A stretch of 64,000 nt of DNA from an uncultured Deferribacterales bacterium (GTDB taxonomy: Bacteria > Chrysiogenota > Deferribacteres > Deferribacterales > Mucispirillaceae). Below the pieces are notes generated by a model. It was not told where the DNA came from. It worked only from the letters and a program-made list of their open reading frames with translations, and searched no databases. Shown here one piece after another: positions 8,589 to 10,563 of the stretch (within the stretch, counting starts at the first letter, position 1; the number at the start of each line of letters is the position of its first letter). The DNA is taken from contig CANTXF010000017.1 in the NCBI GenBank assembly GCA_947853665.1, positions 1 to 64,000 on the forward strand, in the 5' to 3' direction. Made by a program: the position numbers and the translations under genes.

Positions 8589-9099
8589 AGGATATATACA
8601 GATATACACCGGAAACGGCAAAGGGAAAACCACCGCATGCATGGGCCTTGCGTTAAGGGCCGCCGGGGCCGGTTACAGGGTTTTTATAGGCCAGTTTATG
8701 AAAGGCGCCGGTTATTCGGAGCTTAAATCAGTGGAAATGCTCTCTCCCTATGTGGAGATAAAGCAGCTCGGAGGGGAGTGTTTCGTTTTCGGCAAACCGT
8801 CGGCGGAGGATTTCAGGCTGGCCGCGGAAGGCTTCGAACTTTGCAGGAAGAATATGCTTTCCGGCAAATACGATATTATTATAATGGACGAGATAAACGT
8901 TGCCCAATCTATCGGCCTCGTTCCTCTGAAAGACGTGCTGGCCCTTATGGACGAGAAGCCGGAGAATGTGGAGCTTGTTATGACTGGGCGCGGCGCGGCT
9001 CCGGAAATGATGGAAAAAGCCGATCTGGTAACTGAAATGCGTGAAATAAAGCACTACTATCAAAAAGGCGTGGAAGCCAGAACCGGTATAGAAAAATAG
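8578..9099 (+). CDS. cobO: Corrinoid adenosyltransferase, CobO/BtuR family
   Basis: A 173-residue ATP:cob(I)alamin adenosyltransferase that makes adenosylcobalamin in the cytoplasm. The Walker-A-like loop YTGNGKGKTTACMGLALRA at the N-terminus and IIIMDEINVA (Walker B) identify the CobA/CobO/BtuR fold, and the C-terminal VTEMREIKHYYQKGVEAR element is typical. The start at 8578 follows an AAGGAAAAGG site and overlaps larC by 11 bases. It is last in the operon; neighbouring nth, larC and decarboxylase share no obvious pathway with it. Confidence 0.93.
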   Translation: MKDKGYIQIYTGNGKGKTTACMGLALRAAGAGYRVFIGQFMKGAGYSELKSVEMLSPYVEIKQLGGECFVFGKPSAEDFRLAAEGFELCRKNMLSGKYDIIIMDEINVAQSIGLVPLKDVLALMDEKPENVELVMTGRGAAPEMMEKADLVTEMREIKHYYQKGVEARTGIEK

Positions 9100-9348
9100 C
9101 CTGTCTTTCCTGCCCGGCGGCTTTAATCTCCGGAGTTTTCAGAAATCATAAGCCACGTTTATTTATTATATGTTTGCAGCATAACTGCGGAAATCTTTTA
9201 TGACCGCCGCTTGTATGTATGGCTAACAACCTGCTCCAATCGTTTTGTTTCTCCGGATAGAATATGTCCGCAGGCGGCAGCTTATTTCCCGTATACAGCC
9301 AGATCGTTCTTTCTCTGAATTGATTTTAACGCAGACTTTTGAAAACGC
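9100..9348. other. Intergenic region, nothing recognised
   Basis: This stretch separates the cobO operon from the next promoter. It has no gene-like frame and no terminator I can defend. It is AT-rich toward its end. Confidence 0.5.
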
Positions 9349-9375
9349 TTGACATCCCCCCCCCGACTGTAAAAT
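9349..9375 (+). promoter_or_regulatory. Promoter with a C9 homopolymer in the spacer
   Basis: A consensus TTGACA (9349-9354) is followed by a 15-base spacer containing nine consecutive C (9356-9364), then TAAAAT (9370-9375). The start codon at 9403 and an AAGGAGGG ribosome site lie just downstream. Fifteen bases is shorter than the optimum 17. A change in the C-tract length would alter promoter strength, as known for some phase-variable surface genes in other bacteria. Confidence 0.65.
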
Positions 9376-9402
9376 AGGCATTGGGCATAAAAGGAGGGAT
9401 TA

Positions 9403-10563
9403 ATGGTAAAAGCATTTCATATCTTTGTTGTATTGACAATATCGGCTTTATCCGTTTCATGTTCAGGCGGGGAAGGGGAAGGCAAAACTGTTCTTTATAA
9501 GGGTATGCTTGAATACCCTGGCAGCTTTGACGCCAATGTTTGTATCGATGAAAATCTGAACGGCTACGCGGACGATGAAAACTGCCAGACTATTACCAAT
9601 ATAGACGCGGAATACAGCATTGCAGGCTCCGCAGGCGGGTTTCCGCTTGCCGCAGGTATTTATGCCGAAAGCGCCATTACCGCTGAAAGGGCAGTCGAGC
9701 CTATTTACGACAATGTTCTGTCGTCTCCCGCTGAATCTACAGAAAAAATATCCATATTTACGACTTTTATAAAATACGCTATGGACGCGGATCCTGCCGT
9801 AAAATTCGGGGAAGCCGAAAAGCGTGTGACGGCCGACCTGAACCTTATGGAGGGTGAAGATGCCAATAGAGACAAACTATCGGCCTTGCTGCATAAACAG
9901 AAGGAGGCTCTTTCTTATATAAACAGAGGTATGGACGGAGGTCTTACGGCAGATTATGTGCCTGCCGTTATGGCGGAGATTATGTCCGGTCTCAAAGGGC
10001 TGGGAAGCAAAACCACTGAAGAAATTAAATCTGAAAAAGTTGAAGACCTTATTCAACAGGATATTTTTGATAGCATGGAAATCAAAAGAATAGCGGAGGA
10101 GATAAAAAGAACAGTTAAAAAAATGGCCGCAGCAGACGAAGTGGACTTCGGGAAAGTAACTATACCGGATAATGAGGATGAGAGCGTCTTTCAGGGAAAA
10201 CACCCCATTACGTTTAGTAATGACGGCGGCAAAGAGGCGTATGTTTTGATAGGTTGTTATTCTCAAACCGTATACGTTCATGCGGCGGATAAAAACGGTG
10301 TGATCATCAGAGAACCCATAACTTTTGATGCCGGTGAAACGCGGGATCTGAATCTCGTTCTGCAGGTGTCTACCGAACTGGAACCCGGCCTGGTAGAATC
10401 GGATTTTTATATTGCTGCATATTCATCTGAGGATTATGAAAAGTACGGCCTCATTAATGAAAACAGCCAGATAACGCGCGAATTCGCAGACGAGGCCATA
10501 GACGTATTTAAAAAAGCTGTAAAAAAACGCTATTTCTGCAAATTTGACGGAGTTAAAGAATAG
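9403..10563 (+). CDS. Predicted lipoprotein of unknown function
   Basis: A 386-residue protein with a lipoprotein signal: MVKAFHIFVVLTISALSVSC, lipidation Cys at 20, followed by a Gly/Glu-rich linker. The mature protein is acidic, begins with a small beta-rich part (about 30-110) containing DENLNGYADDENC, which resembles a carbohydrate-binding or EF-hand-like acidic loop only superficially, then a helical middle (about 130-255) and a beta-rich end. I do not recognise the family. The ribosome site AAGGAGGG is strong. It is a single gene under the C9-tract promoter, which suggests variable surface or periplasmic display. Confidence 0.7.
   Translation: MVKAFHIFVVLTISALSVSCSGGEGEGKTVLYKGMLEYPGSFDANVCIDENLNGYADDENCQTITNIDAEYSIAGSAGGFPLAAGIYAESAITAERAVEPIYDNVLSSPAESTEKISIFTTFIKYAMDADPAVKFGEAEKRVTADLNLMEGEDANRDKLSALLHKQKEALSYINRGMDGGLTADYVPAVMAEIMSGLKGLGSKTTEEIKSEKVEDLIQQDIFDSMEIKRIAEEIKRTVKKMAAADEVDFGKVTIPDNEDESVFQGKHPITFSNDGGKEAYVLIGCYSQTVYVHAADKNGVIIREPITFDAGETRDLNLVLQVSTELEPGLVESDFYIAAYSSEDYEKYGLINENSQITREFADEAIDVFKKAVKKRYFCKFDGVKE

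Follow-up and report, generated by a model that had tools for sequence, protein, structure and literature searches.

Judging from sequence comparisons, the promoter of a lipoprotein gene in an uncultured Mucispirillaceae bacterium (Deferribacterota) is likely to be tuned by slippage of a homopolymeric C tract, to rest in a low state at nine C (C9), and to belong to a family that would vary lipoproteins cell by cell. It lies in a window of 64,000 nucleotides, the whole stretch of DNA analysed (G000:C17). In the proposed mechanism, the slippage-prone C tract would set the distance between the -35 and -10 elements of a sigma-70-type promoter. C9 would give a 15-bp spacer, 1–2 bp below a family optimum of 16–17 bp, and so keep lipoprotein transcription low. 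Gaining one or two C (16–17 bp) would raise transcription, and losing C would shut it off further. A family of such promoters would let single cells randomly vary the lipoproteins they make. We infer that slippage occurs within populations, as we do the direction and size of its effect on expression and the surface exposure of the lipoproteins.

Layout of the window promoter and its gene

Direct reading of positions 9349–9375 (TTGACATCCCCCCCCCGACTGTAAAAT) bore out to the letter what the sequence-only reading had reported, a TTGACA and a TAAAAT separated by 15 bases of which nine are C. The tract (CCCCCCCCC) is flanked by TTGACA-T- and -GACTG-TAAAAT and, as in promoters of the porA type, lies wholly between recognisable -35 and -10 elements (Table 1). 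The -10 element is 27 bp from the start of the lipoprotein open reading frame (ORF; ATG at 9403), and a CobO-type gene upstream ends at 9099. Searching the plus strand from 9050 to 9402 for other promoter-like (sigma-70-like) sites returned none, which makes 9349–9375 the obvious promoter candidate; a search for RNA families near the same positions gave no match. That empty upstream stretch bears on the idea that the tract slips but is neutral, either because the real promoter lies elsewhere in 9100–9348 or because 15 versus 17 bp hardly matters. Across the family described below, the hexamers are also conserved and stand at a near-fixed distance from the start codons of 45 lipoprotein genes, and we regard neutrality as quite improbable.

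Table 1. Features of the window promoter and its gene, and tract-bearing genes elsewhere in the genome
Feature	Position or locus	Strand	Basis
-35 element TTGACA, perfect consensus	9349..9354	+	direct reading; recurs in family genomes
Spacer, 15 bp, T-C9-GACTG	9355..9369	+	direct reading
C9 homopolymer, proposed variable element	9356..9364	+	position shared by 62 family promoters
-10 element TAAAAT, no TGn extension in window copy	9370..9375	+	homologous promoters aligned
Ribosome-binding site AGGAGG	9392..9397	+	direct reading
Lipoprotein gene, 386 aa, lipobox LSVS-C20	9403..10563	+	ORF translation, homologues in Mucispirillum
Signal peptide and lipid-attachment Cys20	9403..9462	+	Cys20 invariant, 6 aligned homologues
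Tat-signal tract genes, own genome	L006, L007, L008, L243, L245, L253, L254, L256, L258, L262, L263, L264

The encoded protein begins with a signal peptide that carries a lipobox cysteine (MVKAFHIFVVLTISALSVSC), as bacterial lipoproteins do. Serine at lipobox position -3 is atypical but still fits the loose PROSITE-type rule used for ORF scoring. Homologues in relatives have Cys20 and a V-C-x-D-x-N...A-x-D...C motif in common, and five homologues sit directly behind the same promoter (G008:C35, G008:C15, G010:C87, G013:C70 and G013:C149). The upstream region of a paralogue in the same genome (C17:90856) has no tract. Searches of Pfam, NCBIfam and PDB with the window lipoprotein gave no match; a lookup across the GTDB 220 genomes turned up no relative of the protein; the searches gave no close orthologue of the window copy; and the AlphaFold model (mean pLDDT 31.7) was too low in confidence for use. 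The product had been called a surface-type lipoprotein. Its lipoprotein signal stands, and the lipobox marks an envelope protein, but placement at the surface goes beyond that signal and is presumed.

A family of tract promoters in Mucispirillaceae

The source genome is a 2.43-Mb draft in 68 contigs. Up to length six, every extra base sharply lowers the run count in the window, a trend that predicts, as a rough estimate, about one 9-mer genome-wide. The genome contains 60 exact C/G runs of length nine, against 11, 9, 3 and 1 of lengths 7, 8, 10 and 11. Exact 9-mers number 10–37 in nearly all genomes of the sister genus Mucispirillum (g3), 2 in its least complete one, and 0–3 in the third family genus (g2). 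Among the 64 tracts of at least nine in the source genome, TTGACA ends 1–4 nt upstream of the C side in five, versus ~0.06 expected on a rough estimate; the reversed-pattern control for TTGACA plus C tract gave zero. Six sites around C tracts reached a promoter score of at least 10 of 12, versus ~0.3 in shuffles. The window layout is not chance. The genome is a draft and homopolymers are prone to error, yet 10 further genomes, each assembled separately and one of them a single-contig chromosome (G002), show the layout too, and this, together with the excess over expectation, leaves chance or assembly artefact with next to no credibility.

We searched the family genomes for TTGACA, a C run of at least seven and a downstream TANNNT, permitting spacers of 7 to 25 bp or more. 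Tract promoters were present in 11 of 15 genomes, from two genera, with 0 or 1 in reversed-pattern controls. The source genome has five with TTGACA and a sixth site with TTGACT. In a tally restricted to spacers of 12–19 bp, the 62 non-redundant promoters of the family have mostly 15-bp spacers (43 promoters), followed by 16 bp (11) and 14 bp (5). The tract is C9 in 49 of the 62, with the remaining lengths within C7–C11. A ribosome-binding site and a lipobox ORF follow 45 of them at a median distance of 32 bp, a combination found at 16 of 3000 random window positions (0.5%), and several promoters outside the 45 precede genes for other exported proteins.

Tract flanks differ between copies (T+5, TT+4, AAT+3) but add up to about six, with a total near 15, which makes total spacer length the conserved quantity. 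The core in Mucispirillum reads TTGACATTC9[AG]TGATATAAT, and many copies there carry the extended -10 (TGATATAAT) that is missing from the window copy; the extension may give such copies some activity even at 15 bp. This near-invariant core, and the strong conservation of C9 with exactly 15 bp across species, would also suit a fixed structural or regulator-binding spacer, 15 bp being simply normal for the promoter class. An extended -10 can lower the dependence of a promoter on its -35 element, which counts towards the same explanation. However, C9 is also the dominant length inside reading frames of the source genome and so is not promoter-specific, lengths differ between near-identical loci, and the flanks vary around a total near 15. 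We therefore consider a fixed element unlikely and favour a spacer tuned by slippage.

Several further sites accompany this family. Not all C9-spacer promoters of the source genome precede lipoprotein genes: those at L270 and L279 stand before genes for an Obg GTPase and a nitrous-oxide-reductase-like protein. In G007, L299 holds a neighbouring near-duplicate of tract promoter plus lipoprotein gene on the minus strand (at 458 and 1262; 99.75% identity over 400 bp). Candidates for a mirror class in the source genome (L236, L244, L277) combine TTGACT, a short T run, C, G9 and a -10-like hexamer at 15 bp; this poly-G class is weak: two sites score at least 10 where ~0.3 would be expected, and one of the two falls within a coding region.

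Tract length, coding tracts and the direction of effect

Tract lengths were compared between species and on related promoters (from Mucispirillum and Clostridia) rather than on the window copy. Two gut Clostridia metagenome-assembled genomes (L147 and L177) differ over 609 aligned bases by three substitutions and by spacer length, 16 versus 17, with no other indel. L110 has C9 where L304, with identical flanks, has C7, and C9 in L132 stands against C8 in L293 in near-identical surroundings. Related promoters thus show the length differences between near-identical loci that mark porA-type systems; the single-contig chromosome has copies with C10 and with C11. The sequence-only reading had set variable against invariant tract length, and in this between-species comparison, which covers related promoters only, pairs of at least 90% identity gave both outcomes: roughly one third differ and about two thirds are the same (manual count). 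Its broader proposal of a tract-length-tuned promoter gains support at the sequence level from the presence of the layout in 11 family genomes, usually in front of lipoprotein genes, from tracts spanning C7–C11 and from near-identical loci that differ in length. MutS1 and MutL are present and intact, which rules out mismatch-repair loss in the clade; slippage may therefore be slow, possibly at rates below those of mismatch-repair-deficient organisms.

Reading frames in the same genome carry tracts as well. Twelve paralogous Tat-signal genes (Table 1) have G9 or G10 just past the signal peptide, half of them (6 of 12) in frame and half frameshifted with a long downstream frame intact. The four that were searched are all molybdopterin oxidoreductases, and such respiratory reductases are apparently phase-variable by frameshift. 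The frameshifted half thus offers independent support for tract slippage and for a genome-wide phasome. Separately, two methyl-accepting chemotaxis genes (L229 at ~2317 and L233 at ~2020) have a G9 a few bases before their ATG, where it may change ribosome-binding-site spacing.

The probable direction of effect comes from spacing. TTGACA–TATAAT pairs without a tract peak at 16–17 bp in the family (25 and 35 of 121), with 18 at 15 bp, in a sample where reversed-pattern controls were about as many as matches, so chance pairs are numerous. Because of this peak and the precedents of porA and tp0126, C9 is probably the low state and C10–C11 the higher one.

Breadth and comparison with known systems

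We scanned 84,980 species genomes for TTGACA-N1-4-C9-N2-5-TATAAT. Among the matches listed, besides Mucispirillum, are many uncultured gut Clostridia, some Treponema and Histophilus somni, with spacers mostly of 15–17 bp. Among the matches listed (L115–L228), uncultured gut Clostridia have many C9-spacer promoters per genome, and lipoproteins and ABC-transporter-like proteins are among the products encoded behind the listed promoters. The spread across lineages suggests that the same solution has evolved repeatedly. We suggest tentatively, and with slightly less than even confidence, that Mucispirillaceae use one cassette preset low (C9, 15 bp) as a common switch with which to hedge bets over a growing set of lipoproteins, alongside frameshift switching of respiratory reductases, and that the same cassette arose independently in gut Clostridia.

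Mucispirillum belongs to the core gut bacteria of mice and has been linked to inflammation. Should its promoters switch, the cells of a genetically uniform population would carry different envelope lipoproteins, which could affect how the immune system recognises them, how sensitive they are to phage and how well gnotobiotic experiments can be reproduced. Their recurrence also offers dozens of natural length variants for relating spacer length to promoter output outside model pathogens. The use of such promoters as a lipoprotein family in Mucispirillaceae appears undescribed: a literature search on Mucispirillum and phase variation, with subscription papers and preprints outside its scope, returned only unrelated mentions, and the word 'phase' is absent from the M. 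schaedleri genome paper.

The spacer-tract mechanism itself is already established by porA and tp0126. Neisseria meningitidis porA had been invoked as precedent, and a spacer homopolymer does tune expression there (11G high, 10G 2-fold lower and 9G 13-fold lower surface expression; PMC3639595), but the closer precedents, porA and tp0126, are poly-G rather than poly-C. As in the window, the porA homopolymer lies wholly between -35 and -10, and in porA its length shifts expression stepwise; porA differs in having G on the coding strand, in controlling a single porin gene rather than a lipoprotein family, and in that the studied strain stood at 11G, the high state. In Treponema pallidum tp0126, as summarised in PMC7864442, the tract likewise lies between -35 and -10 and transcription is optimal at a total spacer of 17, whereas the tract is poly-G, the product OmpW-like and the phylum unrelated. 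Neisseria meningitidis opc shares a promoter poly-C tract whose length sets expression (11C in the parent, 12C in high expressers; PMC3447861), but that tract is described in PMC7864442 as encompassing the -35 sequence, whereas the window tract lies between two intact hexamers. Campylobacter jejuni NCTC11168 has 29 G/C tracts of at least seven, 23 of the 29 in reading frames and three intergenic (PMC4965091). Its contingency loci resemble the source genome in their many G/C tracts around length nine; those of C. jejuni are mostly intragenic, whereas here tracts form a recurring promoter class in the presence of MutS1 and MutL.
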